Source: Alteromonas macleodii ATCC 27126 (GTDB lineage: Bacteria; Pseudomonadota; Gammaproteobacteria; Enterobacterales; Alteromonadaceae). Taken from it: 64,000 nt of DNA. Made by a program: the position numbers and the translations under genes. Location of the stretch: positions 3,286,001 to 3,350,000 of the forward strand of contig NC_018632.1 in assembly GCF_000172635.2 (NCBI RefSeq). The letters run 5' to 3'. The notes under the pieces were generated by a model that made no database searches, was not told the origin of the DNA, and saw only the letters and a program-made list of their open reading frames with translations. Of this stretch, positions 39,284-63,957 are shown piece by piece. The number at the start of each line of letters is the position of its first letter. The stretch's first letter is position 1.

Positions 39284-39288
39284 ATTAA

Positions 39289-40898: not shown

Positions 40899-41453
40899 CT
40901 ATGCTGTGAAAAGTGACTTAGGTGGGCGAAACTGCCCGAAGTGAGGAGATGAGCGCTGCCCCAGTATAGGTGCAGTGGCAGCCATTCTGGCTACCGATAT
41001 TTCGGTTTCAACGGTAGGCTGAATAAGCGCACTCGCGCTAAGATTAAAACAGTGATCGGCTGGGCAATTACATTCATCCTTGCAGCAAGGCATGTCGCTC
41101 ATCTGCGATGCTTTCACGCTTTTCACGCCTGCATTGCTAACTTGGACGCCGTCGAGCTGAGCGGGTTTGCTCTTGCTGTTTTTAGCACTTAAATCCGCAT
41201 GTTGTGATGACAATTCTTGGTGCTGACAATGTGTATTAGCAGACTCAGGCATTCGAACCTGATGGTTAGCATGAGCAGCATCCGACTGCGGTGTCATCAC
41301 CGCCATTGAATGAGCATGTTCGTATGAATGTTCGATAGATACAGCGCTACCTGACGACACGAGGGCCACCATTAAAAACAGTGTAAGGATAAACGAACTT
41401 GCATTCGCCGACCTATACCGTTTGCGCGTTAAACTAATCCGAAACTTTCTCAA
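40899..41453 (-). CDS. Small exported His/Cys-rich CopL-like protein (intact copy)
   Basis: This 184-residue protein has a basic N-terminus and hydrophobic segment (about 20-37) that form a signal peptide. The mature part is rich in His (SIEHSYEHAHSM, THCQHQELSSQH) and has a Cys cluster, MPCCKDECNCPADHC. This layout resembles CopL-type proteins found beside copper-resistance genes, which may sense or buffer copper. The start appears to be a TTG. It lies directly upstream of cusC and probably belongs to the metal-response operon. The last 42 residues lie left of the 11.4-kb duplication boundary, so only this copy is intact. Confidence 0.65.
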   Translation of the reverse strand: MRKFRISLTRKRYRSANASSFILTLFLMVALVSSGSAVSIEHSYEHAHSMAVMTPQSDAAHANHQVRMPESANTHCQHQELSSQHADLSAKNSKSKPAQLDGVQVSNAGVKSVKASQMSDMPCCKDECNCPADHCFNLSASALIQPTVETEISVARMAATAPILGQRSSPHFGQFRPPKSLFTA

Positions 41454-41546
41454 ATACTGTACTCAAAATATTGCTGTCTATTGTGCAACGAAATAATAGC
41501 GTGATGTGACCAAGCAGTAAAGCCAGCCGTTAATGTCGCTAAGCTA

Positions 41547-41588
41547 GGGCCTGTTGACCTTTATTGTACACCAAAGGTCAACAAGCCC
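41547..41588. repeat. Long inverted repeat (hairpin), copy 1
   Basis: Two 16-base arms (GGGCCTGTTGACCTTT and AAAGGTCAACAAGCCC) pair with one mismatch around a 10-base loop. It lies 8 bases past the hydrolase stop. There is no T-run, so it may be a dispersed intergenic hairpin that also ends transcription rather than a classical terminator. Confidence 0.75.
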
Positions 41589-41595
41589 CAGTAAC

Positions 41596-42681
41596 TTATT
41601 CAAACTGAGACAGGTAATCTCGCAACATAAGGCCCATGGTTGAAAATAGCGGGTTTGCTTTAGGTACCGCACACTCTTCTTGCTGATTAACCATGCTTGC
41701 GTTGAAATTCATTTTATTGAGCAAGCTTGTATTCACAACTAAATCTGCATGGCACAACCCGTACGATTCATCGATAACGAAAAAGGTATTCGGACCTTTA
41801 CTTGCGTCCATTAACTGCTCTATGCCGCGAATTGGCGTGGTTACATCAGCTTGAGAATGAGCGGCAAATAGCGGCACTTCAATTTGCTGTCCTTCCTCGA
41901 CTTTGTCCCGAATGATGTTTATTAAATCCATCAATTCCAACCCTGCTAAACCTGCCACATTTGGATACTTATAAGGGTTGGGGCCATGAGTTTGATAGGT
42001 TCCATCAATAATTCTGGCTAAAAGTTTAATGCCCCAAATTCGAGACATACTTTCAGCATTATCAGACAGCGCCAGCGCGCCAGAAAATAGCATAAGACCA
42101 TCAATATTATTTACTTCGTTTCCTGCACTATCCAGATAATGTTCAACCGCCAGCGCACCACCTGTAGAGAAGCCACCTACAAGCAAAGTATCACCCATGC
42201 TATCAGCCAATTTAATGACTTCATCAACATGCCCCTGCCAGCGCTCAGCTAAATCCCAGTCAGACATGTCATCATCTGCATCTCGTTTACCATGCCCAGG
42301 CAAAAGCGGCACGACTACAGTAAAACCCTGTTCAAATAAGATGTTGGCGATTTCACGCATAAAGAAAGGTGAGTCGCTTAAGCCGTGGATAAGCACTGCC
42401 ACCTTGCTGCTTGATTTGTTGGTCAGCATGAAAGGCGAATTGCCTTCATTGCGCAATACGTTGCTGCATACCGAAAAACGATTGAGTGCCGTTTCTCTAC
42501 ACGGCTGGGTTTGGCCCCACTCTTTTTCGTAAAATGCTTTGAACTGATTTTGAAGGTCTGAAAAACTTCTGCTTTTCATTTCGCTCGTATCGGGTATAGA
42601 TAAATTTGCGGCTATAGCCATATTTACACCTAAAAGCGCAACAATACCTATGAGCATTTTTACAAAAAACTTCGATGACAC
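41596..42681 (-). CDS. Exported alpha/beta hydrolase (lipase/S33-like), copy 1
   Basis: This 361-residue protein starts at a GTG with GGAG seven bases upstream. A signal peptide (about 1-25, AIA-AN) points to the periplasm. The alpha/beta-hydrolase fold shows the oxyanion motif LIHGLSDS, the nucleophile elbow GGFSTGG with S172, and the acid and base as D279 (HSQAD) and H311 (GLCHAD). Four cysteines could form disulphides. It resembles monoacylglycerol-lipase or serine-aminopeptidase families; the substrate is unknown. It is followed by a long hairpin and preceded by the peroxiredoxin gene's terminator, so it is probably expressed alone. Confidence 0.82.
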   Translation of the reverse strand: MSSKFFVKMLIGIVALLGVNMAIAANLSIPDTSEMKSRSFSDLQNQFKAFYEKEWGQTQPCRETALNRFSVCSNVLRNEGNSPFMLTNKSSSKVAVLIHGLSDSPFFMREIANILFEQGFTVVVPLLPGHGKRDADDDMSDWDLAERWQGHVDEVIKLADSMGDTLLVGGFSTGGALAVEHYLDSAGNEVNNIDGLMLFSGALALSDNAESMSRIWGIKLLARIIDGTYQTHGPNPYKYPNVAGLAGLELMDLINIIRDKVEEGQQIEVPLFAAHSQADVTTPIRGIEQLMDASKGPNTFFVIDESYGLCHADLVVNTSLLNKMNFNASMVNQQEECAVPKANPLFSTMGLMLRDYLSQFE

Positions 42682-42711
42682 TATTATTCTCCGCTACGGA
42701 TAATTAATAAA

Positions 42712-42741
42712 AAACGGGAGCAGTTTACCATGCTCCCGTTT
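42712..42741 (-). terminator. Intrinsic terminator after the peroxiredoxin gene, copy 1
   Basis: An 11-bp perfect stem (AAACGGGAGCA and TGCTCCCGTTT, 8-base loop) is flanked by A-run and T-run. It lies just past the peroxiredoxin-glutaredoxin stop. Confidence 0.88.
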
Positions 42742-42768
42742 CTTGTGACGATTAATACGTATATTACG

Positions 42769-43509
42769 TTAGCTAAAGTAAACCTCTAGATCGTCAGAAC
42801 CACCGATATGTTTACCACCGATAAAGACCTGCGGCACAGTTTCACGACCGCTAATCGCCGTTAAGCTGGTTAGTGATGCATCTTTGCCCAACACGATTTC
42901 TTCGTACTCGTAGCCTTTTTCATCAAGCAGTTTTTTCGCTTTAGCACAGAAAGGACAACCCGGTTTTGTGATAATAGAAACAGGTGCGTTAGTTTGCTCC
43001 TCTGGCGCAATGTAAGCCAGCATGGTATCTGCATCCGACACCTCAAACGGGTCGCCAGCTACATCAGGTTCAATAAACATTTTGTCTACCACGCCATCTT
43101 TCACTAGCATCGAGTAACGCCAACTTCTTTTGCCGAAACCCAAATCCGCTTTATCGACTAGCATACCCATGCCATCGGTAAATTCTCCGTTACCGTCGGG
43201 AATAACGGTTATGTTAGCGGCTTCTTGATCTGCGGCCCATGCATTCATAACGAAAGTATCGTTTACCGATACACAAACAATCTCATCAATGCCGTGTTTC
43301 GCAAACTTTTTCGCTAAAGCGTTATAGCGAGGCAAGTGGGTAGAAGAACAGGTTGGTGTAAAAGCACCTGGAAGTGAGAAGACCACAACATTTTTGCCAG
43401 AAAATAATTCATCTGTCGTTTTCGTTACCCACGTCTCACCTTCTCGGCACGGAAATGAAACGCTAGGTACTTTTTGGCCTTCTTTGGAAGTGAAGCGACT
43501 TTCTGACAT
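42769..43509 (-). CDS. Peroxiredoxin 5-glutaredoxin fusion (hybrid peroxidase), copy 1
   Basis: The 246-residue protein joins a Prx5-type peroxiredoxin (about 5-165) to a glutaredoxin (about 175-246). The peroxidatic cysteine is C54 in [14 protein letters not shown]; the glutaredoxin motif is C185-P-F-C188, with TVPQVFIGG and GGSDDL of the glutathione site. Hybrids of this kind reduce hydrogen and alkyl peroxides with glutathione, without a separate thioredoxin. AGAGG lies 5 bases before the ATG. It is divergent from parA across a 225-base region. Confidence 0.95.
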
Positions 43510-43659
43510 AACAACCTCTTATCGGTAATCTCAATTATAAAGTAAGAAGACTAGAATGAGTTTTTGCACAAATCAATAGGTATTGTCTTACATTCGTTAA
43601 TATCGATTTTGATGCTGAACCTAGCTGATAGCCTGCCTATGCTTTGAGTGGAGGTTAGG

Positions 43660-43691
43660 TACGGTCGTAACACCATTCACGACCCACCGTA
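43660..43691. promoter_or_regulatory. Nested inverted repeat upstream of parA-like gene, copy 1
   Basis: GGTCGT and ACGACC (10-base gap) are enclosed by TACGG and CCGTA. It lies about 45 bases before the ParA-like start in the divergent region. It could be an operator for the adjacent ribbon-helix-helix protein; this is inference. Confidence 0.4.
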
Positions 43692-43734
43692 ACGCTCAGT
43701 ATTTTAACATAAGCGATATTCGAGGGTTATCACC

Positions 43735-44430
43735 ATGATTATTTTGGTTGGTGGAGAAAAAGGCGGTAGCGGAAAGAGCTGCCTGGCACAAAACATTGCA
43801 GTGTATCTTCGCACTGAAAAAGGTGCCAAGGTGTTAATGGTCGACTGTGACCCGCAGCGAACGACCTCAGACTGGATCCAAGAGCGTAAAGCTAACCCTC
43901 GTCTCGCTGAAATTAACTGTGTTCAGTTATACGGTAAAATACGTAACGAATTACTTAGCCTGCGTCAGTATTACGATTACGTTGTAATAGACTGTGGTGG
44001 ACAAGATAACCTAGCGCTTCGCTCGTCAATGGCGGTTGCTGACCATATACTGATTCCACTTAGACCCAAACGTCGCGATCTCAAAACGGTACCTCACATG
44101 GAAGATATTTTATCTACCTGTAAAATGGTTAACCCGAAAATGAACGCCGCGTTCGTTATCACACAGTGCCCTTCTCTACCTAGCCTGGCAAACCGTATTC
44201 TAGAGGCAAAAGAAGTGTGTCGCTCATTTGGTATTCCCGTCCTAAACTCTGTTACTTTTAGTAGAAACATGTATGACGATTCAGAAGAGTCAGGGCAGTC
44301 AGTTATTGAGAGTGAACCAGAAGGTAAAGCGGCCACAGAAATAAGAACCTTGTTTGAAGAGCTACTAGCTGGCAAAGTGGAGGATGCTTATGAGTTTACT
44401 CAACCTCAAAAAGTCGAAGCCGTTAGCTAA
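43735..44430 (+). CDS. ParA/MinD-type ATPase, copy 1
   Basis: This 231-residue P-loop ATPase has the deviant Walker A motif EKGGSGKS (signature K9), followed by VLMVDCDPQRTTSDW and YVVIDCGGQ. These are hallmarks of ParA-family proteins that position plasmids, chromosomes or protein clusters by ATP-dependent DNA binding. It has no N-terminal helix-turn-helix, like the small ParA class (ParF). It overlaps the next gene, a small RHH protein, which is the normal partner of small ParAs. No plasmid replication gene is nearby, so this is an orphan pair, perhaps for positioning a protein complex. Confidence 0.88.
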   Translation: MIILVGGEKGGSGKSCLAQNIAVYLRTEKGAKVLMVDCDPQRTTSDWIQERKANPRLAEINCVQLYGKIRNELLSLRQYYDYVVIDCGGQDNLALRSSMAVADHILIPLRPKRRDLKTVPHMEDILSTCKMVNPKMNAAFVITQCPSLPSLANRILEAKEVCRSFGIPVLNSVTFSRNMYDDSEESGQSVIESEPEGKAATEIRTLFEELLAGKVEDAYEFTQPQKVEAVS

Positions 44431-44713
44431 GCCCAATCTACGAACTGTAGAAGATTTTATCGACGATGCGCTGCTTTATGCCCAAGGTAAAGTGGATAAA
44501 AAGCAACCATCGGCGGCAAAAAACGATTTAAAAGACGTTCGTACAGACCGCGTTGTGCCGATAAGAAAGCCTGCAAAATCAGAAGGTATGCGACATGCTA
44601 CCTTTACGTTAACACCGCAATGTATTGAAAAACTTGCAAACATTGCCCAAAAGACAGGTAAAGCCAAGTCTGCACTGATTCGAGAGTGGATTGAAAATAA
44701 CAGCATAAATTAG
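44390..44713 (+). CDS. Ribbon-helix-helix partner of the ParA-like ATPase, copy 1
   Basis: This 107-residue protein has a basic, unstructured N-terminal half and a C-terminal ribbon-helix-helix-like fold (about 65-105), visible as RHATFTLTPQCIEKLANIAQ followed by KSALIREWIENN. N-terminal tails of such proteins stimulate ParA ATPases, and the RHH binds DNA. The start at 44390 is preferred because GGAGG lies six bases upstream; a second ATG two codons earlier abuts that site. The overlap with the ParA-like gene shows translational coupling. Confidence 0.75.
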   Translation: MSLLNLKKSKPLAKPNLRTVEDFIDDALLYAQGKVDKKQPSAAKNDLKDVRTDRVVPIRKPAKSEGMRHATFTLTPQCIEKLANIAQKTGKAKSALIREWIENNSIN

Positions 44714-44841
44714 ACTAAAGTATAAATCCAAATACGTATTTCATTCGTTTTATCCTTCACAATAATAATGTTGCCTTGGCGTTAGCCTACTGGGATACTC
44801 ACCGACAGCATGTTCTGACAGCGTATAGGAGATACAATCGA

Positions 44842-46974
44842 ATGGGCCGTGAAGGATTTAGCACAGTGCGCGTGCTGGTGTGTGCCCTGCTAATTGCTGT
44901 GCATGGCGCACAGGTAAAAACGGTAGAAGCGTTCGAGCTTTTCAATACCGAGATTGCTGATGTCGAGAACCTTTTAAATGCCAAGCAATATGCTGACGCC
45001 GATAGCAAGGCACTGTTGCTTTTAGAGCAAGCGCTACAACAGCAACAAATGTCTGCTGATACATTTTCTGCCCTCGGACTCTTACTTCAAAACGCATCGC
45101 GTTTTGAGGTGTCAAAAGCCATTTTTAATGCCGCCTTAGAGCGCTACACCACAGATGGTGAATTAAACAAAATGGCGTCAACGCTATTACAACTAGCCAC
45201 CTCAGAAAGACACCTTTCAAATTATTCCATTGCACTGACTTATGTGCGTCGCGCTATGTCTATTGCTCAAATTGAGCGTAATGAATTACTTAAGGCTAAA
45301 TTGAACCTTGAGCTAGGCATAATTCAACAAGAACAAGGCGAAATTGAAACCGCTTTGGAGCCGTTAAAGCAAGCGCTACGTTATTTTCGTGAAAATAACA
45401 TGGCCAGTGAAATGAGTGTTACGTTGCTACGCATCGGTGAGATATACAGTTTGCTCAATCAAGCTACTTTGGCTCATACCTACTACCAAGACGCTTTCGA
45501 CAGTATCGAGGAAACACAGGAGACCCGATTACTTGGTGTGATCAAAACTCGTATTGGTGCCCTATCTCTCAAAACAGGCTCTGTAGACCAAGCAATAAGA
45601 GCAATTAACGAAGGTCTTGAACTCCTGCTATCCACCTTTGATGTAGGGGCCATAGCCGAAGCAAAAATGCTATTGGGAAGAGCATTGGTTGAAAACGGCG
45701 ATACAGCTAAAGGGCGAGAGTTATTGCAAGAAGCCATGCAATTTGCCGATTCATCGGGTCAGGCAAAATTGGTCAAAGAAGGCAGACTCGCTTTAGCGCA
45801 AGCCTATATGAAAGAGCAGAGTTTCGAATTAGCCTTAGAAGAGGCCCGCACGGGTACTATTGACGCGAGAAAAAATAGAGACCTTAGAGGACAGCTTAGT
45901 TTTCTGTCGTTACAGCTAAGCGCCTTTGTATCACTAGGCGAATTCAAAAAAGCCTTAGATATTCAATCTGTTATGCAGCAGTTGCGTGAGGTGCTACTTG
46001 ATTCAGAAAACAAGTCTGCCATTGAAGGCCTGCAGGCTGAGATTGAGCTTGTGAGGCAATCTAGGACGTTGGAGAAACTGGAAGAGTCCAAGCAGCTGGC
46101 GTTAGCGCAAGCTGAGCGAGAAAACCTGCAGACGACTCTTTTTTGGAGTATATCATTAGCAGCGTTACTCTTGACGTTTTTAGTGTGGAGCCGCTACAAA
46201 CAACGTCAGCAAACGATTATTTTGCGCCGAGAAGTACGCCAGCAAACACTAAATCTTCAAGAAAAAAATCAAGAACTGGAAAGAGCCTATAAAACGCTAG
46301 AAGAGGTAAGCCTGCGCGATCCGTTAACGGGTTTGTACAATAGGCACTACCTCGAATCGCAGCTTCCCGGTGAAATAAGGCGCAGCCAGTTCTCGGCAAA
46401 ACAAAGCCCCAGTACAGGAAAGACGAAACAAGACTTACTTTGCTTACTTATTGATATCGACCACTTTAAGCGCATCAACGACGACTATGGGCATATTGCC
46501 GGCGATAAAGTGCTATCAGCGTTTGCCAATGTCCTCAAAGAGGTGTTCAGACAAACGGATTTAATTATTCGATGGGGAGGCGAGGAGTTTTTGGTGGTTT
46601 GTCGCCAATCTACTCGTGAAGAGCTCCCTGAGGTTGCCGAGCGCTGCCGAGAAATGGTCGCTAACACTCCTTTTGATATCGGCTTAGAAAAACCAATCAA
46701 TATTACTTGTAGCATTGGCTTTTCGCTGCTTCCTCCAGATAGAGAGGAAGACTTTGATACCGCGTGGAAACGCACATTCGCCGTTATCGATTACGCGCTG
46801 TATGCCACCAAATTATCAGGGAGAAATGGATGGGTTGGCGTAATCGAAACGCTTAAAACTCCAAGGGAATACCCCACTCCACTAGATACGAAGTTTAATT
46901 TTCCTGGTTCGAGAATTGCCACATCGTTCAACAACGTGGCAAGTATCAAATGGCCGGAGACCCTCGAGAAATAG
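44842..46974 (+). CDS. TPR-containing diguanylate cyclase (GGDEF), copy 1
   Basis: The about 710-residue protein has a signal peptide, a large periplasmic part of tetratricopeptide-like helical repeats (about 35-400), a coiled coil, one transmembrane helix (about 433-449), a second coiled coil, and a cytoplasmic GGDEF domain (about 490-665). The active-site loop reads GGEEF (579-583) and an RQTD I-site lies five residues before it. Both suggest an active, product-inhibited cyclic-di-GMP synthase. The ATG at 44842 is preferred, with AGGAG 10 bases upstream; a TTG 22 codons earlier is less likely. The ligand of the periplasmic sensor is unknown. Confidence 0.92.
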   Translation: MGREGFSTVRVLVCALLIAVHGAQVKTVEAFELFNTEIADVENLLNAKQYADADSKALLLLEQALQQQQMSADTFSALGLLLQNASRFEVSKAIFNAALERYTTDGELNKMASTLLQLATSERHLSNYSIALTYVRRAMSIAQIERNELLKAKLNLELGIIQQEQGEIETALEPLKQALRYFRENNMASEMSVTLLRIGEIYSLLNQATLAHTYYQDAFDSIEETQETRLLGVIKTRIGALSLKTGSVDQAIRAINEGLELLLSTFDVGAIAEAKMLLGRALVENGDTAKGRELLQEAMQFADSSGQAKLVKEGRLALAQAYMKEQSFELALEEARTGTIDARKNRDLRGQLSFLSLQLSAFVSLGEFKKALDIQSVMQQLREVLLDSENKSAIEGLQAEIELVRQSRTLEKLEESKQLALAQAERENLQTTLFWSISLAALLLTFLVWSRYKQRQQTIILRREVRQQTLNLQEKNQELERAYKTLEEVSLRDPLTGLYNRHYLESQLPGEIRRSQFSAKQSPSTGKTKQDLLCLLIDIDHFKRINDDYGHIAGDKVLSAFANVLKEVFRQTDLIIRWGGEEFLVVCRQSTREELPEVAERCREMVANTPFDIGLEKPINITCSIGFSLLPPDREEDFDTAWKRTFAVIDYALYATKLSGRNGWVGVIETLKTPREYPTPLDTKFNFPGSRIATSFNNVASIKWPETLEK

Positions 46975-46992
46975 CAGTAGAGGAATAGAGAT

Positions 46993-47310
46993 ATGTACAG
47001 AGGAAGCTGCAGCTGCCAAGCAATTCAATATGAAATAGATCATATCGGAGAGCTTGACGCCGATGACGAAACGCTAAGCCATTCAGATACCAGTGAACTG
47101 CGCGTTACAATTGAAAAAGAGCAGCTGGTTATTGACTGTGCACCGTCAGCGCTAGCGGAACTACACGAGGCTAATGACGAAACCCACCACGTGTGTAACA
47201 CTTGTGGGAGCGTTATCTTTGTTGAGCGTGGCTCTAACCAAGTGTCGGTTGAGGTGACCTTCAGCGGTCATGACGTCTTAGCAGAGTCTCACTGCCAGTT
47301 TGTCTTTTAG
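46993..47310 (+). CDS. Short GFA/CENP-V-like zinc protein, copy 1
   Basis: The 105-residue protein has the N-terminal CxC of the GFA family (GSCSCQAIQYE) and a C-terminal HHVCNTCGSVIF. The family usually has a further central Cys motif (HCxxC), which is missing: residues 15-45 are acidic and hold no cysteine. It is also shorter than typical members. It may bind one zinc instead of two and is unlikely to act on glutathione adducts as the founder does. It lies 18 bases after the GGDEF gene and is probably co-transcribed. Confidence 0.65.
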   Translation: MYRGSCSCQAIQYEIDHIGELDADDETLSHSDTSELRVTIEKEQLVIDCAPSALAELHEANDETHHVCNTCGSVIFVERGSNQVSVEVTFSGHDVLAESHCQFVF

Positions 47311-47329
47311 GTGGGTACACAAGGATAAA

Positions 47330-47389
47330 GGCGAACTGCGAGTTCGCCCAGATACCAACAGGTGAGAAGTACATTTCTCTCCTGTTTGG
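47330..47389. terminator. Two hairpins between convergent genes, copy 1
   Basis: Between the GFA-like gene (plus) and prsR (minus) there is a perfect 8-bp stem (GGCGAACT and AGTTCGCC, 3-base loop) and a second imperfect 14-bp stem (47355-47389). Neither has a T-run, but they probably end transcription from both sides. Confidence 0.45.
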
Positions 47390-47403
47390 TAGTCATGTCT
47401 ACC

Positions 47404-48765
47404 CTAGTCGCTATTTTTGATGTCTTCCATATGGTATTTATCAATGAGCGAATACAACGTGGGACGAGTGACGCCAAGTAATTCTGCCGTTTTCGACATA
47501 TTCTTATCTGCTTTTTGATAGGCCCTGCGAATAGCTCGACTTTCAGCAATTTCTCGCACTTCACGCAGATTCAACGTTTCAGGCTCATCATGAGCATCTA
47601 CAGGCATCAAGCCTAAATCGTCAGGTTGAATTACCGTACCTTCAGCCATAATAACCGCCGACTTTAGCTTGTTTTGCATTTCTCGAATGTTGCCCGGCCA
47701 CTTATGGGCTAGCATGGCGTTAACTGCAGTTTCTGAAAAGCTCTTCGCTTTAGCTTTGAATTCTTCGCGATAAATATTCAAGAACGTACGTGCAAGTAAA
47801 ATAATGTCTTGGTCTCGTTCACGTAAAGGAGGGATCATGATCGGCATTTCCCCCACACGGTAATATAAATCTTCCCTGAACGTTTCTTGCGCCACCATAG
47901 CCTGTAAATCGCGGTGCGTTGCACAAATTACGCGTATATCAACGGGAATTTCATTGCGTCCACCAACGCGCTCGATCACGCGCTCCTGCAAAAACCGAAG
48001 CATCTTAGCTTGCAGACCAATGGGCATATCACCAATCTCATCTAAAAACAGTGTTCCGCCTTGTGCTGTTTCTATCTTGCCGACGGTGGTTTTGTTCGCG
48101 CCAGTAAACGCCCCTTTTTCGTAACCGAACAACTCACTTTCTAGTAAGTTCTCTGGGATAGACGCACAGTTAATAGCAACAAAAGGTTTGTCTTTTCTAG
48201 GGCTGTGTTCGTGAATACTGCGCGCGAAAACTTCTTTACCTGTGCCACTTTCACCAAGTAACAGAGTGCTTATGTCGGTATTGGCAATTTTCTCAGCGCG
48301 ACGTACCACTTTTTGAATAGCTTCGCTGTTACCCACTATTCTGGACATGCCAGAACGGGTGCGGGCAAGAATGCTATTCTCATGCTCTAACTTAGACAGG
48401 TTAAGCGCACGGTGCACCAATAATTTGATGGTATCTGAATCGATAGGCTTCTGATAAAAATCGTATGCCCCAAAATCGATTGCTTTTAATGCGTGTTGTT
48501 TATCGTTATTACCTGTAACAACGATAACTTTGGTTCTAGGCGCTAGCGCAATGATGTCGTGAAGAATACGCAAACCTTCCGACGCATTCGCTGGATCTGG
48601 CGGAAGCCCTAAATCTAGGGTAACAACCTTAGGTTCAAAACGACGGAGTTGGGCTATGGCAGATGTGTGATCGTCCGCAAAAACAACGTTGTAATCGGTA
48701 AGACTCCATTTAAGTTGCTTTTGGATACCTAAATCATCATCTACTACCAAAATGGTATCGGTCAT
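47404..48765 (-). CDS. prsR: Sigma-54-dependent response regulator PrsR, copy 1
   Basis: This 453-residue NtrC-type regulator has an N-terminal receiver (phospho-acceptor D51 in VVTLDLGLP), an AAA+ domain with Walker A GESGTGKE (171-178) and the sigma-54 contact loop GAFTGA (218-223), and a C-terminal Fis-type helix-turn-helix (NMSKTAELLGVTRPTLYSL). PrsR activates RpoN promoters of PEP-CTERM protein and exopolysaccharide genes in XrtA-type exosortase systems. It lies 75 bases after prsK in the same direction. The assignment depends on the pairing with PrsK; the exosortase genes themselves are outside the window. Confidence 0.88.
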   Translation of the reverse strand: MTDTILVVDDDLGIQKQLKWSLTDYNVVFADDHTSAIAQLRRFEPKVVTLDLGLPPDPANASEGLRILHDIIALAPRTKVIVVTGNNDKQHALKAIDFGAYDFYQKPIDSDTIKLLVHRALNLSKLEHENSILARTRSGMSRIVGNSEAIQKVVRRAEKIANTDISTLLLGESGTGKEVFARSIHEHSPRKDKPFVAINCASIPENLLESELFGYEKGAFTGANKTTVGKIETAQGGTLFLDEIGDMPIGLQAKMLRFLQERVIERVGGRNEIPVDIRVICATHRDLQAMVAQETFREDLYYRVGEMPIMIPPLRERDQDIILLARTFLNIYREEFKAKAKSFSETAVNAMLAHKWPGNIREMQNKLKSAVIMAEGTVIQPDDLGLMPVDAHDEPETLNLREVREIAESRAIRRAYQKADKNMSKTAELLGVTRPTLYSLIDKYHMEDIKNSD

Positions 48766-48840
48766 TTCATCATCCTATTATTCTACTTCATCCATCGAAA
48801 GGGAGTGGATTTGATAATATCCACTTTTTAGTTATACACC

Positions 48841-50913: not shown

Positions 50914-50956
50914 CCTTTTATCTCACCTTTATTATCATTATTTAGGAGATGAAATA

Positions 50957-50985
50957 CAGGGAGGCGCATTGATGCAACGTCCCTG
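50957..50985. other. Hairpin after the ketoacyl synthase gene, copy 1
   Basis: CAGGGA and TCCCTG pair across 17 bases that contain a further small palindrome. It lies between the synthase stop and prsK and may be a weak terminator. The second copy is at 62322-62350. Confidence 0.35.
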
Positions 50986-51060
50986 AAACCTTCGATATAC
51001 AGCACATAACGTTTTTTAGCTAGGTACGGTGCGCAGGCATCGCCCGCGCTATGATAAAAA

Positions 51061-52953: not shown

Positions 52954-52960
52954 CAGTAAC

Positions 52961-54046: not shown

Positions 54047-54076
54047 TATTATTCTCCGCTACGGATAATTAATAAA

Positions 54077-54106
54077 AAACGGGAGCAGTTTACCATGCTC
54101 CCGTTT
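54077..54106 (-). terminator. Intrinsic terminator after the peroxiredoxin gene, copy 2
   Basis: This duplicates the 11-bp stem terminator of copy 1, with A-run and T-run intact. Confidence 0.88.
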
Positions 54107-54133
54107 CTTGTGACGATTAATACGTATATTACG

Positions 54134-54874: not shown

Positions 54875-55024
54875 AACAACCTCTTATCGGTAATCTCAAT
54901 TATAAAGTAAGAAGACTAGAATGAGTTTTTGCACAAATCAATAGGTATTGTCTTACATTCGTTAATATCGATTTTGATGCTGAACCTAGCTGATAGCCTG
55001 CCTATGCTTTGAGTGGAGGTTAGG

Positions 55025-55056
55025 TACGGTCGTAACACCATTCACGACCCACCGTA
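55025..55056. promoter_or_regulatory. Nested inverted repeat upstream of parA-like gene, copy 2
   Basis: This is the duplicate of the GGTCGT/ACGACC element. If it is the partner protein's operator, two sites 11.4 kb apart now exist. Confidence 0.4.
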
Positions 55057-55099
55057 ACGCTCAGTATTTTAACATAAGCGATATTCGAGGGTTATCACC

Positions 55100-55795
55100 A
55101 TGATTATTTTGGTTGGTGGAGAAAAAGGCGGTAGCGGAAAGAGCTGCCTGGCACAAAACATTGCAGTGTATCTTCGCACTGAAAAAGGTGCCAAGGTGTT
55201 AATGGTCGACTGTGACCCGCAGCGAACGACCTCAGACTGGATCCAAGAGCGTAAAGCTAACCCTCGTCTCGCTGAAATTAACTGTGTTCAGTTATACGGT
55301 AAAATACGTAACGAATTACTTAGCCTGCGTCAGTATTACGATTACGTTGTAATAGACTGTGGTGGACAAGATAACCTAGCGCTTCGCTCGTCAATGGCGG
55401 TTGCTGACCATATACTGATTCCACTTAGACCCAAACGTCGCGATCTCAAAACGGTACCTCACATGGAAGATATTTTATCTACCTGTAAAATGGTTAACCC
55501 GAAAATGAACGCCGCGTTCGTTATCACACAGTGCCCTTCTCTACCTAGCCTGGCAAACCGTATTCTAGAGGCAAAAGAAGTGTGTCGCTCATTTGGTATT
55601 CCCGTCCTAAACTCTGTTACTTTTAGTAGAAACATGTATGACGATTCAGAAGAGTCAGGGCAGTCAGTTATTGAGAGTGAACCAGAAGGTAAAGCGGCCA
55701 CAGAAATAAGAACCTTGTTTGAAGAGCTACTAGCTGGCAAAGTGGAGGATGCTTATGAGTTTACTCAACCTCAAAAAGTCGAAGCCGTTAGCTAA
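55100..55795 (+). CDS. ParA/MinD-type ATPase, copy 2
   Basis: The translation equals copy 1 (231 residues; deviant Walker A EKGGSGKS). Small ParA proteins work at tuned ratios with their partner; here both partners are doubled together, which keeps the ratio. Confidence 0.88.
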   Translation: MIILVGGEKGGSGKSCLAQNIAVYLRTEKGAKVLMVDCDPQRTTSDWIQERKANPRLAEINCVQLYGKIRNELLSLRQYYDYVVIDCGGQDNLALRSSMAVADHILIPLRPKRRDLKTVPHMEDILSTCKMVNPKMNAAFVITQCPSLPSLANRILEAKEVCRSFGIPVLNSVTFSRNMYDDSEESGQSVIESEPEGKAATEIRTLFEELLAGKVEDAYEFTQPQKVEAVS

Positions 55796-56078
55796 GCCCA
55801 ATCTACGAACTGTAGAAGATTTTATCGACGATGCGCTGCTTTATGCCCAAGGTAAAGTGGATAAAAAGCAACCATCGGCGGCAAAAAACGATTTAAAAGA
55901 CGTTCGTACAGACCGCGTTGTGCCGATAAGAAAGCCTGCAAAATCAGAAGGTATGCGACATGCTACCTTTACGTTAACACCGCAATGTATTGAAAAACTT
56001 GCAAACATTGCCCAAAAGACAGGTAAAGCCAAGTCTGCACTGATTCGAGAGTGGATTGAAAATAACAGCATAAATTAG
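55755..56078 (+). CDS. Ribbon-helix-helix partner of the ParA-like ATPase, copy 2
   Basis: The translation equals copy 1 (107 residues from the preferred start). It overlaps the ParA-like gene in the same way. Confidence 0.75.
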   Translation: MSLLNLKKSKPLAKPNLRTVEDFIDDALLYAQGKVDKKQPSAAKNDLKDVRTDRVVPIRKPAKSEGMRHATFTLTPQCIEKLANIAQKTGKAKSALIREWIENNSIN

Positions 56079-56206
56079 ACTAAAGTATAAATCCAAATAC
56101 GTATTTCATTCGTTTTATCCTTCACAATAATAATGTTGCCTTGGCGTTAGCCTACTGGGATACTCACCGACAGCATGTTCTGACAGCGTATAGGAGATAC
56201 AATCGA

Positions 56207-58339
56207 ATGGGCCGTGAAGGATTTAGCACAGTGCGCGTGCTGGTGTGTGCCCTGCTAATTGCTGTGCATGGCGCACAGGTAAAAACGGTAGAAGCGTTCG
56301 AGCTTTTCAATACCGAGATTGCTGATGTCGAGAACCTTTTAAATGCCAAGCAATATGCTGACGCCGATAGCAAGGCACTGTTGCTTTTAGAGCAAGCGCT
56401 ACAACAGCAACAAATGTCTGCTGATACATTTTCTGCCCTCGGACTCTTACTTCAAAACGCATCGCGTTTTGAGGTGTCAAAAGCCATTTTTAATGCCGCC
56501 TTAGAGCGCTACACCACAGATGGTGAATTAAACAAAATGGCGTCAACGCTATTACAACTAGCCACCTCAGAAAGACACCTTTCAAATTATTCCATTGCAC
56601 TGACTTATGTGCGTCGCGCTATGTCTATTGCTCAAATTGAGCGTAATGAATTACTTAAGGCTAAATTGAACCTTGAGCTAGGCATAATTCAACAAGAACA
56701 AGGCGAAATTGAAACCGCTTTGGAGCCGTTAAAGCAAGCGCTACGTTATTTTCGTGAAAATAACATGGCCAGTGAAATGAGTGTTACGTTGCTACGCATC
56801 GGTGAGATATACAGTTTGCTCAATCAAGCTACTTTGGCTCATACCTACTACCAAGACGCTTTCGACAGTATCGAGGAAACACAGGAGACCCGATTACTTG
56901 GTGTGATCAAAACTCGTATTGGTGCCCTATCTCTCAAAACAGGCTCTGTAGACCAAGCAATAAGAGCAATTAACGAAGGTCTTGAACTCCTGCTATCCAC
57001 CTTTGATGTAGGGGCCATAGCCGAAGCAAAAATGCTATTGGGAAGAGCATTGGTTGAAAACGGCGATACAGCTAAAGGGCGAGAGTTATTGCAAGAAGCC
57101 ATGCAATTTGCCGATTCATCGGGTCAGGCAAAATTGGTCAAAGAAGGCAGACTCGCTTTAGCGCAAGCCTATATGAAAGAGCAGAGTTTCGAATTAGCCT
57201 TAGAAGAGGCCCGCACGGGTACTATTGACGCGAGAAAAAATAGAGACCTTAGAGGACAGCTTAGTTTTCTGTCGTTACAGCTAAGCGCCTTTGTATCACT
57301 AGGCGAATTCAAAAAAGCCTTAGATATTCAATCTGTTATGCAGCAGTTGCGTGAGGTGCTACTTGATTCAGAAAACAAGTCTGCCATTGAAGGCCTGCAG
57401 GCTGAGATTGAGCTTGTGAGGCAATCTAGGACGTTGGAGAAACTGGAAGAGTCCAAGCAGCTGGCGTTAGCGCAAGCTGAGCGAGAAAACCTGCAGACGA
57501 CTCTTTTTTGGAGTATATCATTAGCAGCGTTACTCTTGACGTTTTTAGTGTGGAGCCGCTACAAACAACGTCAGCAAACGATTATTTTGCGCCGAGAAGT
57601 ACGCCAGCAAACACTAAATCTTCAAGAAAAAAATCAAGAACTGGAAAGAGCCTATAAAACGCTAGAAGAGGTAAGCCTGCGCGATCCGTTAACGGGTTTG
57701 TACAATAGGCACTACCTCGAATCGCAGCTTCCCGGTGAAATAAGGCGCAGCCAGTTCTCGGCAAAACAAAGCCCCAGTACAGGAAAGACGAAACAAGACT
57801 TACTTTGCTTACTTATTGATATCGACCACTTTAAGCGCATCAACGACGACTATGGGCATATTGCCGGCGATAAAGTGCTATCAGCGTTTGCCAATGTCCT
57901 CAAAGAGGTGTTCAGACAAACGGATTTAATTATTCGATGGGGAGGCGAGGAGTTTTTGGTGGTTTGTCGCCAATCTACTCGTGAAGAGCTCCCTGAGGTT
58001 GCCGAGCGCTGCCGAGAAATGGTCGCTAACACTCCTTTTGATATCGGCTTAGAAAAACCAATCAATATTACTTGTAGCATTGGCTTTTCGCTGCTTCCTC
58101 CAGATAGAGAGGAAGACTTTGATACCGCGTGGAAACGCACATTCGCCGTTATCGATTACGCGCTGTATGCCACCAAATTATCAGGGAGAAATGGATGGGT
58201 TGGCGTAATCGAAACGCTTAAAACTCCAAGGGAATACCCCACTCCACTAGATACGAAGTTTAATTTTCCTGGTTCGAGAATTGCCACATCGTTCAACAAC
58301 GTGGCAAGTATCAAATGGCCGGAGACCCTCGAGAAATAG
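56207..58339 (+). CDS. TPR-containing diguanylate cyclase (GGDEF), copy 2
   Basis: The translation equals copy 1 (about 710 residues; GGEEF active site and RQTD inhibitory site). A second dose of an inner-membrane cyclase could raise local cyclic-di-GMP, though product inhibition would limit this. Confidence 0.92.
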   Translation: MGREGFSTVRVLVCALLIAVHGAQVKTVEAFELFNTEIADVENLLNAKQYADADSKALLLLEQALQQQQMSADTFSALGLLLQNASRFEVSKAIFNAALERYTTDGELNKMASTLLQLATSERHLSNYSIALTYVRRAMSIAQIERNELLKAKLNLELGIIQQEQGEIETALEPLKQALRYFRENNMASEMSVTLLRIGEIYSLLNQATLAHTYYQDAFDSIEETQETRLLGVIKTRIGALSLKTGSVDQAIRAINEGLELLLSTFDVGAIAEAKMLLGRALVENGDTAKGRELLQEAMQFADSSGQAKLVKEGRLALAQAYMKEQSFELALEEARTGTIDARKNRDLRGQLSFLSLQLSAFVSLGEFKKALDIQSVMQQLREVLLDSENKSAIEGLQAEIELVRQSRTLEKLEESKQLALAQAERENLQTTLFWSISLAALLLTFLVWSRYKQRQQTIILRREVRQQTLNLQEKNQELERAYKTLEEVSLRDPLTGLYNRHYLESQLPGEIRRSQFSAKQSPSTGKTKQDLLCLLIDIDHFKRINDDYGHIAGDKVLSAFANVLKEVFRQTDLIIRWGGEEFLVVCRQSTREELPEVAERCREMVANTPFDIGLEKPINITCSIGFSLLPPDREEDFDTAWKRTFAVIDYALYATKLSGRNGWVGVIETLKTPREYPTPLDTKFNFPGSRIATSFNNVASIKWPETLEK

Positions 58340-58357
58340 CAGTAGAGGAATAGAGAT

Positions 58358-58675
58358 ATGTACAGAGGAAGCTGCAGCTGCCAAGCAATTCAATATGAAA
58401 TAGATCATATCGGAGAGCTTGACGCCGATGACGAAACGCTAAGCCATTCAGATACCAGTGAACTGCGCGTTACAATTGAAAAAGAGCAGCTGGTTATTGA
58501 CTGTGCACCGTCAGCGCTAGCGGAACTACACGAGGCTAATGACGAAACCCACCACGTGTGTAACACTTGTGGGAGCGTTATCTTTGTTGAGCGTGGCTCT
58601 AACCAAGTGTCGGTTGAGGTGACCTTCAGCGGTCATGACGTCTTAGCAGAGTCTCACTGCCAGTTTGTCTTTTAG
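58358..58675 (+). CDS. Short GFA/CENP-V-like zinc protein, copy 2
   Basis: The translation equals copy 1 (105 residues), with CxC and CxxC but no central Cys motif. It follows the GGDEF gene by 18 bases. Confidence 0.65.
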   Translation: MYRGSCSCQAIQYEIDHIGELDADDETLSHSDTSELRVTIEKEQLVIDCAPSALAELHEANDETHHVCNTCGSVIFVERGSNQVSVEVTFSGHDVLAESHCQFVF

Positions 58676-58694
58676 GTGGGTACACAAGGATAAA

Positions 58695-58754
58695 GGCGAA
58701 CTGCGAGTTCGCCCAGATACCAACAGGTGAGAAGTACATTTCTCTCCTGTTTGG
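58695..58754. terminator. Two hairpins between convergent genes, copy 2
   Basis: This is the duplicate of the paired hairpins between the GFA-like gene and prsR; neither has a T-run. Confidence 0.45.
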
Positions 58755-58768
58755 TAGTCATGTCTACC

Positions 58769-60130
58769 CTAGTCGCTATTTTTGATGTCTTCCATATGGT
58801 ATTTATCAATGAGCGAATACAACGTGGGACGAGTGACGCCAAGTAATTCTGCCGTTTTCGACATATTCTTATCTGCTTTTTGATAGGCCCTGCGAATAGC
58901 TCGACTTTCAGCAATTTCTCGCACTTCACGCAGATTCAACGTTTCAGGCTCATCATGAGCATCTACAGGCATCAAGCCTAAATCGTCAGGTTGAATTACC
59001 GTACCTTCAGCCATAATAACCGCCGACTTTAGCTTGTTTTGCATTTCTCGAATGTTGCCCGGCCACTTATGGGCTAGCATGGCGTTAACTGCAGTTTCTG
59101 AAAAGCTCTTCGCTTTAGCTTTGAATTCTTCGCGATAAATATTCAAGAACGTACGTGCAAGTAAAATAATGTCTTGGTCTCGTTCACGTAAAGGAGGGAT
59201 CATGATCGGCATTTCCCCCACACGGTAATATAAATCTTCCCTGAACGTTTCTTGCGCCACCATAGCCTGTAAATCGCGGTGCGTTGCACAAATTACGCGT
59301 ATATCAACGGGAATTTCATTGCGTCCACCAACGCGCTCGATCACGCGCTCCTGCAAAAACCGAAGCATCTTAGCTTGCAGACCAATGGGCATATCACCAA
59401 TCTCATCTAAAAACAGTGTTCCGCCTTGTGCTGTTTCTATCTTGCCGACGGTGGTTTTGTTCGCGCCAGTAAACGCCCCTTTTTCGTAACCGAACAACTC
59501 ACTTTCTAGTAAGTTCTCTGGGATAGACGCACAGTTAATAGCAACAAAAGGTTTGTCTTTTCTAGGGCTGTGTTCGTGAATACTGCGCGCGAAAACTTCT
59601 TTACCTGTGCCACTTTCACCAAGTAACAGAGTGCTTATGTCGGTATTGGCAATTTTCTCAGCGCGACGTACCACTTTTTGAATAGCTTCGCTGTTACCCA
59701 CTATTCTGGACATGCCAGAACGGGTGCGGGCAAGAATGCTATTCTCATGCTCTAACTTAGACAGGTTAAGCGCACGGTGCACCAATAATTTGATGGTATC
59801 TGAATCGATAGGCTTCTGATAAAAATCGTATGCCCCAAAATCGATTGCTTTTAATGCGTGTTGTTTATCGTTATTACCTGTAACAACGATAACTTTGGTT
59901 CTAGGCGCTAGCGCAATGATGTCGTGAAGAATACGCAAACCTTCCGACGCATTCGCTGGATCTGGCGGAAGCCCTAAATCTAGGGTAACAACCTTAGGTT
60001 CAAAACGACGGAGTTGGGCTATGGCAGATGTGTGATCGTCCGCAAAAACAACGTTGTAATCGGTAAGACTCCATTTAAGTTGCTTTTGGATACCTAAATC
60101 ATCATCTACTACCAAAATGGTATCGGTCAT
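58769..60130 (-). CDS. prsR: Sigma-54-dependent response regulator PrsR, copy 2
   Basis: The translation equals copy 1 (453 residues; D51, GESGTGKE, GAFTGA and Fis-type helix-turn-helix all intact). Kinase and regulator are doubled together, so stoichiometry is kept while dosage rises. Confidence 0.88.
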   Translation of the reverse strand: MTDTILVVDDDLGIQKQLKWSLTDYNVVFADDHTSAIAQLRRFEPKVVTLDLGLPPDPANASEGLRILHDIIALAPRTKVIVVTGNNDKQHALKAIDFGAYDFYQKPIDSDTIKLLVHRALNLSKLEHENSILARTRSGMSRIVGNSEAIQKVVRRAEKIANTDISTLLLGESGTGKEVFARSIHEHSPRKDKPFVAINCASIPENLLESELFGYEKGAFTGANKTTVGKIETAQGGTLFLDEIGDMPIGLQAKMLRFLQERVIERVGGRNEIPVDIRVICATHRDLQAMVAQETFREDLYYRVGEMPIMIPPLRERDQDIILLARTFLNIYREEFKAKAKSFSETAVNAMLAHKWPGNIREMQNKLKSAVIMAEGTVIQPDDLGLMPVDAHDEPETLNLREVREIAESRAIRRAYQKADKNMSKTAELLGVTRPTLYSLIDKYHMEDIKNSD

Positions 60131-60205
60131 TTCATCATCCTATTATTCTACTTCATCCATCGAAAGGGAGTGGATTTGATAATATCCACTTTTTAGTTAT
60201 ACACC

Positions 60206-62278
60206 CTATCCTATCGGAAAATAAAGCGTAAAACAGCTACCGCGTCCAGGTTCACTTTGAACAGTTAGTTTGCCACCGATAGACTCGATATATGTTTTTG
60301 CATCATATGCACCAATACCCATACCAGCATTGCCTTTCGTGGTATCAAATGGCTTGAATAGTCGCTCTTCAATAAACGCTTTATCCATACCTGACCCTGT
60401 ATCTTCTATCAAAACTAGCTGCGTTTTGTTGTCAGAATTTCCAGTAATCACCACGTCGACTTCTCCGTCATCTGCGGTTGCCTGCTGAGCGTTGCTGATT
60501 AGGTGATAAAGCACGTTTGCCACCTTATCCTTATCAACCGTCACGGCCGTTTCTTTTAGCACATGAACTGTTGGTAGCGGACGTAAACCTGAACAGCGGT
60601 TGTTGACCACATCTTTGGCCAGCTCCGAAATCAAAAATTCTGAGTTTACACCTTCTTCAACGGCCTTCTTATCAGTCAGCTGCTTGAGCATTTTTTCCAT
60701 TCTTGCCTTAGTATGCTCCAAGGTTTCGAAGGTGTCTTCGATAAATTCAGGGTTGTGTTTATGCTGTTGAGCATTGGCAAGAATAAGGTCGACTTGAGCA
60801 AGTACATTTTTTAAGTCATGTAAAACGAACGCAGACATTCGATTGAATGCCGCAAATTGGGCGTTTTCTGCTACCACTTGAGCGGCCTCGTGGTGCTGCA
60901 TGTATGTGCCTACTTGCTCAGATACGGCGGTTAGATAGTCTTTCACTTCCCAATTTAAAGTGATTTTTTCATTGTCTCCTGACGCGAGAACAGCAAATCC
61001 CCACAGTTTTCCCTCTTTTAAGAAAGGCACGAAGAGTTGGTAGCCCCATGCTTTTAGTGCATCTCTATCTAGCTTTAACCCCTCGTAATCGAATGGTTTG
61101 ACGAGGTAGGCGTCCGTATCAATGATCCAGCCATTTTTGTCGCTGTAACTTGCGAGCGTTTCCAACGTTGTACAGGTAGCGTTGTTTTCTTTCGAATCAG
61201 TTGACGCTTCATTGTTATCTGTTGACGCAGTGTTTGTAATAGGTGATGCCTTAGCCACGCATTCATAGCCATTCTGCGTTACTTTAAACAGCAGACCTGA
61301 CTCATATTGAATGGCGTTAAGCATTCCGGTTAGGCCAGCGTGGTAAACATCTGATGAGGTATCCCCTGCACGTGTTAACCACTGCGTTAATTTCACCCAT
61401 TCAACCCGGTAGTCGAACTGATTCGCAAAGAAATGTTTAGTGATAAATACTTTTATCTTAGTGCGAAAGCCGTTGGACAAGAATACCGTGGCGAGCAATG
61501 CGAATGACATCACAACCAATATGATTTGAACCGTCGCTCCCCAGTTGCCTCCCATATAATTTATGGCGTAGCCGACAACAGCCATCACAAAAAGATAACC
61601 GCCCGCCACTAAGAGTAGAGAGCTGTGCAATACCACGTCCCGCGAGATAAAGATATCAATGCCCCAGTGATGAATTCGTCGAATCGATATGACGAGTAAG
61701 GGCATTAACAAGAAGTAAATATAGCCTCGTGCCGCTATGTAGCCAATTTCAACCTGGTTTACCATGGTAGCGTTTGCATAGGTAACGAACTCAAACAGGT
61801 TGGTAGCTCCCAGATAAATAATAATGGGTTTAAACGCCCACTGCTCACGCCCCGCCTGTCGATACACAACTTCCAGAAGAACAAGCACTTCTAATGACAG
61901 CACGATCAGTACAAGAAAGCTCCACGCGGGATTTACTACCAATAGATAAGGGGCGAGCAATGCTGCTAGTGCGGGGGCAATAATAATTAACGTTACAGGT
62001 CGTTTTAGAACGTCGAAGATATTACTAAAGCTGGTCTGTATACAGCCAGCCAAAAAGAGTAGCCATGCGAGCTGCTTAAGCACGTCAGCGCTGAGTAACC
62101 AGCTTAGCGAGATAGGTCCAAATAGCGAAGTGATTAAGGTTGTAGACCATAAAAAGGTGGCTGCGGTCGCCAACACCAATAAATGCTTGGCTACGCCGGG
62201 TTTGCGTACCGTTAACAACAGCAATAAAAGGGCTAAGTGCGCCAGACTATTTAACCCATAGCCTACATCTGAAATCAT
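60206..62278 (-). CDS. prsK: Membrane sensor histidine kinase PrsK, copy 2
   Basis: The translation equals copy 1 (690 residues; multi-helix sensor, GAF-like region, H487, HATPase). No divergence was seen, so both copies should respond to the same signal. Confidence 0.88.
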   Translation of the reverse strand: MISDVGYGLNSLAHLALLLLLLTVRKPGVAKHLLVLATAATFLWSTTLITSLFGPISLSWLLSADVLKQLAWLLFLAGCIQTSFSNIFDVLKRPVTLIIIAPALAALLAPYLLVVNPAWSFLVLIVLSLEVLVLLEVVYRQAGREQWAFKPIIIYLGATNLFEFVTYANATMVNQVEIGYIAARGYIYFLLMPLLVISIRRIHHWGIDIFISRDVVLHSSLLLVAGGYLFVMAVVGYAINYMGGNWGATVQIILVVMSFALLATVFLSNGFRTKIKVFITKHFFANQFDYRVEWVKLTQWLTRAGDTSSDVYHAGLTGMLNAIQYESGLLFKVTQNGYECVAKASPITNTASTDNNEASTDSKENNATCTTLETLASYSDKNGWIIDTDAYLVKPFDYEGLKLDRDALKAWGYQLFVPFLKEGKLWGFAVLASGDNEKITLNWEVKDYLTAVSEQVGTYMQHHEAAQVVAENAQFAAFNRMSAFVLHDLKNVLAQVDLILANAQQHKHNPEFIEDTFETLEHTKARMEKMLKQLTDKKAVEEGVNSEFLISELAKDVVNNRCSGLRPLPTVHVLKETAVTVDKDKVANVLYHLISNAQQATADDGEVDVVITGNSDNKTQLVLIEDTGSGMDKAFIEERLFKPFDTTKGNAGMGIGAYDAKTYIESIGGKLTVQSEPGRGSCFTLYFPIG

Positions 62279-62425
62279 CCTTTTATCTCACCTTTATTAT
62301 CATTATTTAGGAGATGAAATACAGGGAGGCGCATTGATGCAACGTCCCTGAAACCTTCGATATACAGCACATAACGTTTTTTAGCTAGGTACGGTGCGCA
62401 GGCATCGCCCGCGCTATGATAAAAA

Positions 62426-63550
62426 CTATCGTTTACGGATCACTAGTGAGCCAATTGAATACCCTGCACCGAAAGAGCAAAGTACTCCCACGTCACCGGC
62501 AACCAGGTCTTCATGGTTTAAACCAAACGCAATCACAGAACCCGCAGAAGCCGTGTTGGCATACTCGTCCAACACAATTGGCGCTTCGGTACGGTCAGCA
62601 TCGCGACCTAACAGGCGTTTGCAAATCAAGGTGTTCATATTGATATTAGCTTGGTGAAGCCACCAACGCTTGACGCCTTCTGGCGTAATGTCGTGACTCG
62701 CTAAATGCGCTTCAATATGCGCTGCTGCCAATGGACACACTTCCTTGAAAACTTTGCGACCCGCTTGATGGAACAGCTTATCAGGTCCATACGGATCAAC
62801 GTCTTCGGCACGTGTCATGTAACCAAAATTAGAACGAATATTGTTTGAGAATTTCGTCAATGCTTTGGTGCTTAGCACGTCGTACACGTGCTCACTTTTG
62901 GCGGTTTCAGCAAGCTCAAGCACCGTCGCCGTAGCCACATCGCCAAAAATAAAGTGACTGTCGCGATCAGCGTAGTTAATTTGCGGTGAGACCAACTCAG
63001 GGTTAATAACCAACACGCGAGTCGCATTTTTCGCGCTCAGCATTTCATAGGCGCGATGCATACCGAACGTTGCTGCAGAACAAGCAACTAGCATATCGAA
63101 ACCAAACCCTTCAATATTAAGGGCTTCTTGTACTTCAATTGCAATCGCAGGATAAGCACGCTGGGTGTATGCACACGACACAATCACAGCATCAATCTCA
63201 TCGGCAGTAACATTGGCGGATGCAAGAGCTAACTTGGCCGCTTCGACGGCAATTTCACCTTGGTGAGAAAGTTCGTCATCTGCTCGAGGGGCAATCTTAG
63301 GCTTCATTCGAGTGATGTCTAGCGCACCCTCTTTTCGATAGATGTAGCGACTTTTAATTCCTGATGCTTTTTCGATGAACTCTGCACTTGAATAAGGCAT
63401 TGCTGCTACATCACCTGATTCGATTTGCGCTTTATTTTCTTCGTTAAACGCATCTACGTAAGCATTGTAGCTATCTACGAGCTCTTCGTTAGTTATACTG
63501 TCTTTAGGGTGCCATACACCCACACCACTAATCACAACTTGCTGAGACAT
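62426..63550 (-). CDS. 3-oxoacyl-ACP synthase III-like enzyme, copy 2
   Basis: The translation equals copy 1 (374 residues; C157, H299, N332). Its upstream 200 bases are the same as in copy 1 up to the duplication boundary. This copy keeps the original right-hand flank, whereas copy 1's upstream region is followed by the chimeric CopL-like gene. Confidence 0.85.
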   Translation of the reverse strand: MSQQVVISGVGVWHPKDSITNEELVDSYNAYVDAFNEENKAQIESGDVAAMPYSSAEFIEKASGIKSRYIYRKEGALDITRMKPKIAPRADDELSHQGEIAVEAAKLALASANVTADEIDAVIVSCAYTQRAYPAIAIEVQEALNIEGFGFDMLVACSAATFGMHRAYEMLSAKNATRVLVINPELVSPQINYADRDSHFIFGDVATATVLELAETAKSEHVYDVLSTKALTKFSNNIRSNFGYMTRAEDVDPYGPDKLFHQAGRKVFKEVCPLAAAHIEAHLASHDITPEGVKRWWLHQANINMNTLICKRLLGRDADRTEAPIVLDEYANTASAGSVIAFGLNHEDLVAGDVGVLCSFGAGYSIGSLVIRKR

Positions 63551-63957
63551 AGGCATTCTCTATTATTTGATAGCACTATGGCGGTATTGAGCATTGCGTT
63601 ACTCTGTGTCCTAAACGCATCTATACCAGTGCAATTGAGCCTAATCGTATTTACCTTTAAAAATACGACTGCGTTTTATGTGTTATAGCTTACCCTAATC
63701 CTTAAACGGTGTAACCATAGTGAACGCAAGGAAAGCTCTATTCCTCCGTTTAATACCAGCCCGCATAGATAATTACCCACTCAGCGAGACTTAAAATGTT
63801 CGTAATCGTGGCGTGTTTTCGAAGGTATAGTGGCTCTACATCAAGGTGACACAACAAAGATTAAGGACACTTTGAACTCGGCCTTCGGGAAGGTCTGGCA
63901 AGCTACCAATAAAAAACCCCGCTTCAAAGCGGGGTTTCATGTAATCAATACGGGAAC
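63551..63957. other. Intergenic region spanning the right duplication boundary
   Basis: About 400 bases hold the upstream region of the ketoacyl synthase gene, the right boundary at 63759-63760, unique sequence and a terminator. I see no supported gene; short frames here lack ribosome sites. Confidence 0.6.
63911..63937 (-). terminator. Intrinsic terminator of the gene at the right edge
   Basis: An 11-bp perfect stem (AAACCCCGCTT and AAGCGGGGTTT, 2-base loop as drawn) is followed on the minus strand by a T-run. It lies about 20 bases past the stop of the partial gene at the edge. Confidence 0.88.

Follow-up and report, generated by a model that had tools for sequence, protein, structure and literature searches.

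An exact 11,365-bp head-to-tail tandem duplication in the genome record of Alteromonas macleodii ATCC 27126

Genes and extent of the repeated segment

The window analysed was a 64,000-nt stretch of contig NC_018632.1 (3,286,001-3,350,000) of Alteromonas macleodii ATCC 27126, whose 4,653,851-bp genome is recorded as one contig; positions below are those of the window. Protein families were assigned by Pfam and NCBIfam. Nine ORFs of at least 100 aa taken as genes lie fully within a unit that occurs twice, and a tenth, encoding a CopL-like protein, is cut by the left boundary of the unit. The antisense ORF at 42197-42532 was excluded from this count. On the left flank, genes of the TolC, CusB and CusA families (family matches) lie downstream of the CopL-like gene on the same strand, and the right flank carries the gene of a choice-of-anchor I protein.

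40899..41453, minus strand: CopL-like protein, intact, 184 aa (NF033807, 29.3 bits, below the cut-off of 40); crossed by the left boundary
41596..42681 (copy 52961-54046), minus strand: alpha/beta hydrolase (PF12146)
42769..43509 (copy 54134-54874), minus strand: peroxiredoxin-glutaredoxin fusion (PF08534, PF00462, TIGR02190)
43735..44430 (copy 55100-55795), plus strand: ParA-like ATPase (PF13614; NF041546, 151 bits, below the cut-off of 180)
44384..44713 (copy 55749-56078), plus strand: 109-aa ORF overlapping the ParA-like gene (weak RelB-like match, 21.5 bits, cut-off 50)
44776..46974 (copy 56141-58339), plus strand: TPR-GGDEF protein, probable diguanylate cyclase (PF00990)
46993..47310 (copy 58358-58675), plus strand: GFA-family protein (PF04828)
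47404..48765 (copy 58769-60130), minus strand: PrsR, PEP-CTERM/XrtA response regulator (TIGR02915, 701 bits, cut-off 502.6)
48841..50913 (copy 60206-62278), minus strand: PrsK, PEP-CTERM/XrtA histidine kinase (TIGR02916, 565 bits, cut-off 300)
51061..52191 (copy 62426-63556), minus strand: beta-ketoacyl-ACP synthase III, KASIII (NF005703, 593 bits, cut-off 304)

The genes of the unit look ordinary and chromosomal. The region 34252-41595 holds CusCBA-like efflux genes headed by the Cys/His-rich CopL-like protein, and the intergenic region between the hydrolase and CopL-like genes varies in length among relatives. At 43735-44713, near prsRK, the ParA-like gene is followed by the overlapping 109-aa ORF, in which the weak RelB-like similarity lies at the end of the ORF. 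Rfam models gave no match in 38000-64000 at gathering thresholds.

Each position was compared by a base-by-base script with the position 11,365 further on, and runs of at least 30 identities were listed. The sole exact run in the window was 41029-52395 (11,367 bases, 0 mismatches), which corresponds to two head-to-tail copies of an 11,365-bp unit plus a GC shared by the left, inner and right junctions.

41029..52393: first copy of the unit (11,365 bp), identical to the second
52394..63758: second copy of the unit, identical to the first
41029..41030: left endpoint, shared GC, within the stem of the small hairpin at 41026-41039
52394..52395: inner (novel) junction, GC, located by the end of the run and the junction probe
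63759..63760: right endpoint, shared GC, in the gap between the KASIII and choice-of-anchor I genes

An earlier sequence-only reading had described an exact head-to-tail duplication of this length with a GC common to three junctions, and both points were confirmed, the GC by the two bases by which the run exceeds the unit. Its ten recurring genes are also found, provided that the CopL-like gene, of which the unit has the 5' part, is counted, and so is its lack of long repeats at the ends. Besides this pair, the window contains no direct or inverted repeat (exact seed 20, minimum 40), and a 120-bp inner-junction probe matched in full at one place in the complete genome and by halves at the two places where this was expected, and nowhere else. 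With two direct copies, one novel junction and flanks that are otherwise unchanged, the structure has the form of a short-junction tandem duplication.

The unit in related genomes

Among 28 loci with relatives of PrsK, the closest ones under a name belong to Alteromonas, A. marina AD001 reaching 99% over its best segment. A. abrolhosensis, Alteromonas sp. ALT199, A. gracilis and others were also near, and Bowmanella, Glaciecola and Thalassomonas were more distant. KASIII was searched at E <= 1e-100 in 59 Alteromonas genomes (one per species), and a single match was obtained in all 58 other genomes and two only in ATCC 27126. Eleven of the 58 are single contigs, and most weight is placed on these because an exact tandem repeat would be hidden in short-read drafts. 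The PrsK search, which covered 40 genomes including its own, gave one strong match (>850 bits) in each of 23 other genomes of the genus and two here.

Alignment to close relatives, which had been proposed as a check for a single-copy state, agreed with the KASIII counts: nine relatives compared by DNA (G020, G017, G008, G013, G019, G018, G050, G051 and G061) have one unit each. In G051 a single unbroken alignment runs across the right junction (63259-64258, 93.7%) and another across the left (40529-41477, 87.6%), and the left junction is also crossed by a one-piece alignment in G050 and G017. The unit stands at one place in the relatives compared, with the same outer neighbours on either side; parts of the left cus region are absent from, or too divergent in, G013, G018 and G019, and the right flank of G061 fell outside the stretch compared. 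The inner-junction probe matched at all in eight of the 59 genomes, its own included, and the seven others matched one or both halves. A match across the junction was found in 0 of the 58 other genomes, in 51 of which the probe was too diverged to tell. On these comparisons the single copy is ancestral and the duplicated state, seen in one genome only, is derived.

The right endpoint falls in the gap between the KASIII and choice-of-anchor genes (63557-63957), a variable site that ranges from 294 bp to 9.3 kb in the eight of nine relatives where it was measurable. G050 and G017 have 9 kb extra there, an insert common to both and 84% alike, which in G050 codes for a dehydrogenase, an MFS transporter, a TonB-dependent receptor and a 910-aa protein with no family match above cut-off.

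Identity to G020, taken in 1-kb steps, is 94-98% at 33.5-38.5 kb and 92-96% from 71.8 kb onward; between those stretches it is 78-92%, and it is likewise reduced, to 86-92%, at 30.5-32.5 kb. More distant relatives show a smaller drop than G020 over about 39100-72300 (the window plus its right flank), and against A. marina AD001 the same interval is a mosaic of 82-96%. Homologous replacement of a tract that includes the entire unit may account for the interval, or its genes may just be changing faster. Homologous import was rejected as the cause of the duplication, since the low-identity edges (~39.1 and ~72.3 kb) do not match the unit ends and import would not alone yield two identical copies.

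Endpoints and inner junction

One endpoint of the unit lies within a gene and the other in an intergenic gap. The sequence-only reading took the 2-bp homology to imply a microhomology event and gave weight to an additional AATA similarity, and neither step was upheld. Endpoint pairs drawn at random from the same region with similar spacing shared at least 2 bp in 15.9% of 20,000 cases, and the local alignment of the 60-bp windows at the two endpoints scored 7, a value that 57.6% of 3,000 random pairs matched or exceeded. Because both values are at chance level the microhomology argument fails, and membership of the microhomology subclass (joint homology above chance, too short for RecA) is not claimed.

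The 100-nt DNA fold at the left endpoint had a z of -4.48, with 0 of 200 shuffles as stable, and ranked in the top 0.75% by stability of 3,195 windows of the same sequence; the 40-nt fold ranked only in the top 5.8%. The right endpoint was ordinary (82% of windows at least as stable), as was the inner junction (z -0.55). This last value, and the lack of any inverted repeat of at least 40 bp at seed 20 in the window, led to rejection of an inverted (TID-type) duplication. The left-end hairpin is a hint to mechanism and no more, because two endpoints and two sizes were examined, and such a structure may also be where a sequencing contig stops.

The inner junction creates one new reading frame.

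52330..52818, minus strand: chimeric 162-aa ORF, consisting of the first 142 CopL-like residues and a 20-aa foreign tail; the 42 C-terminal residues of the intact copy are lost

Read along the minus strand, the CopL-like upstream region is followed by the 142 codons, the 20-aa tail and the stop (52330), and then, after 138 bp, by the KASIII start (52191), PrsK and PrsR. The first CopL-like copy and KASIII copy 2 keep their natural neighbours. No terminator-like site was found on the minus strand in 52100-52900, and a single promoter-like match (minus strand, 52886-52858) is no more than chance would give (1 found, shuffle mean 1.6). None of 19 database relatives of the chimeric protein aligned past residue 145 of 162, i.e. 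none had the 20-aa tail; because the database was clustered at 90% identity, the junction may still occur elsewhere.

If the duplication is real, the second CopL-like copy is without its own last 42 codons, and its start and upstream region are joined to the copy-1 KASIII, prsK and prsR genes, all on one strand, which could then be transcribed from the CopL-like gene promoter. It is conceivable, at long odds, that such an arrangement was selected, with the CopL-like/cus promoter region before a second KASIII-prsK-prsR set coupling metal stress to exopolysaccharide control and the original set staying under its own control. The same-strand order and the lack of a terminator-like site in 52100-52900 allow this reading, in which a metal response of the CopL-like promoter is presumed only from the adjoining efflux genes.

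Origin of the second copy

The record holds two exact copies of a segment with a single-copy ancestor, with no end repeats and no above-chance homology. Youth or selection on the one hand, and assembly error on the other, had been left as readings by the sequence-only reading, and the present results support that choice. A real short-junction duplication and an assembly error are about equally likely; both predict the same sequence. We give an even chance to a real, recent, non-mobile tandem duplication of an Alteromonas chromosome segment, of the short-junction kind, and something short of an even chance to an assembly error; both weights are judgements and were not computed.

For a real duplication, sister strands would have been joined, without usable homology, at points separated by 11,365 bp, perhaps after a replication stall at the left-end hairpin. 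We infer the presence of the duplication in cells, the stall or template-switch step and the copies being too young to differ. Exactness, head-to-tail order, the ancestral single copy and the left hairpin favour a real event. Against it stand the chance-level 2-bp junction and the lack of a comparable hairpin at the right endpoint; RecA recombination is also expected to remove tandem repeats of this size readily.

Published systems bear on both sides. In its available portions, the E. coli lac study (PMC3161906) places 19 of 24 non-REP amplification junctions on a predicted stem or stem and loop, a preference that favours a real event here; the same portions give microhomology at 40 of 40 sequenced amplification junctions, which disfavours it, and mention joints of just 2-3 bp in some complex events. 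Excerpts of a Salmonella chemostat study (PMC3411829) estimate duplications in about 20% of cells, and this commonness also favours a real event. The same excerpts report that five of eight tested duplications were confirmed, all five with at least 11 bp of homology, which counts against it with the reservation that the candidates were pre-screened for longer homology and therefore scarcely test 2-bp junctions. A further point in favour comes from A. macleodii HOT1A3, for which excerpts of PMC4781885 describe about twofold coverage over ~70 kb of the chromosome, a region regarded by the authors as possibly a tandem repeat. The word start 'duplicat' is absent from the main texts of PMC12021255, PMC12838423 and PMC11325263, although we do not claim that the duplication is unreported, and a literature search returned no paper joining Alteromonas macleodii and PrsK. 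A Nanopore assembly exists for a galE-disruption mutant of ATCC 27126 (BioSample SAMN39273374, BioProject PRJNA1061545), according to the part of PMC11325263 available.

Under an assembly error, an 11,365-bp overlap between two contigs, or between the ends of a single circular contig, was left untrimmed at joining, the record start then being set near dnaA. The record begins ~409 bp before a DnaA-like ORF, which is followed by ORFs that look DnaN- and RecF-like. The position of the DnaA-like ORF indicates that the record start was chosen, which leaves room for an untrimmed contig overlap and fits the interior position of the duplication. Zero mismatches, chance-level homology and a single copy in relatives are all predicted by such an error, and hand joining in finishing is a step open to mistakes. 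Such an artefact typically leaves exact copies whose endpoints bear no relation to genes or repeats, as found here; the strong left-end hairpin is a mild exception that fits a biological breakpoint, though also a sequencing stop. A further point against an error is that assemblers normally merge exact 11-kb overlaps, and de Bruijn contigs overlap by less than one k-mer. Start-end overlaps are a known assembler habit, as described in part of PMC6966772. The authors who closed ATCC 27126 describe finishing other Alteromonas genomes, in the sections available of PMC4119200, from short reads with Velvet, Geneious with reference genomes, and contig-end oligonucleotides.

An older duplication whose copies gene conversion has kept identical, or which is maintained by dosage selection on the PrsK, PrsR and diguanylate-cyclase genes, is very improbable. 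The unit does contain regulators for which dosage could matter, but two KASIII copies and an inner-junction match each occurred in 0 of the 58 other Alteromonas genomes; there is thus no sign of age among these genomes, which represent one per species and include short-read drafts that hide exact copies. Least credible, to the point of being negligible, is the tandem insertion of two copies of a plasmid or of a mobile or integrative element: head-to-tail order and the ParA-like gene inside the unit would suit it, but the ten unit proteins scanned (Pfam, NCBIfam) include no integrase, transposase or relaxase family, the end repeats are no longer than 2 bp where a tandem integrative element should have att-like ones, and the unit's KASIII is present in 59 of 59 Alteromonas genomes, with no empty site seen for it among them and one place with the same outer neighbours in the relatives compared.

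The exact tandem duplication in the record was correctly seen; its class is already known and no new mechanism is involved. Should the event be real, regulator genes have been freshly doubled in tandem on this chromosome: disrupting prsK, prsR or the KASIII gene once would leave another copy intact, and results from passage or expression work would be affected. Should it be an assembly error, 11,365 bases of the record are false, and nine of its genes are surplus along with one chimeric ORF. Either outcome merits a correction or a note on the record.

Repeat-mediated duplications form between rRNA operons or insertion sequences. The present one is like them in direct tandem order and differs in having no homologous repeats or insertion sequences at its ends, and a repeat-mediated (RecA, IS, rRNA) origin was rejected. 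Untrimmed contig-overlap artefacts, as characterised in the accessible part of PMC6966772, resemble it in exact copies, arbitrary endpoints and a single-contig record with a chosen start; in contrast to a start-end overlap, the interior place here needs rotation or a hand join. From the short-junction duplications of E. coli lac (PMC3161906) and Salmonella (PMC3411829), as far as the available excerpts describe them, it differs in a joint homology at chance level (2 bp) and in being known from the sequence record alone. It shares with those events direct tandem copies, a simple joint and one endpoint in a potential hairpin stem, and its 11,365-bp unit is similar in size to the embedded inverted segments of 5.2-42.6 kb given in the lac excerpts (PMC3161906).
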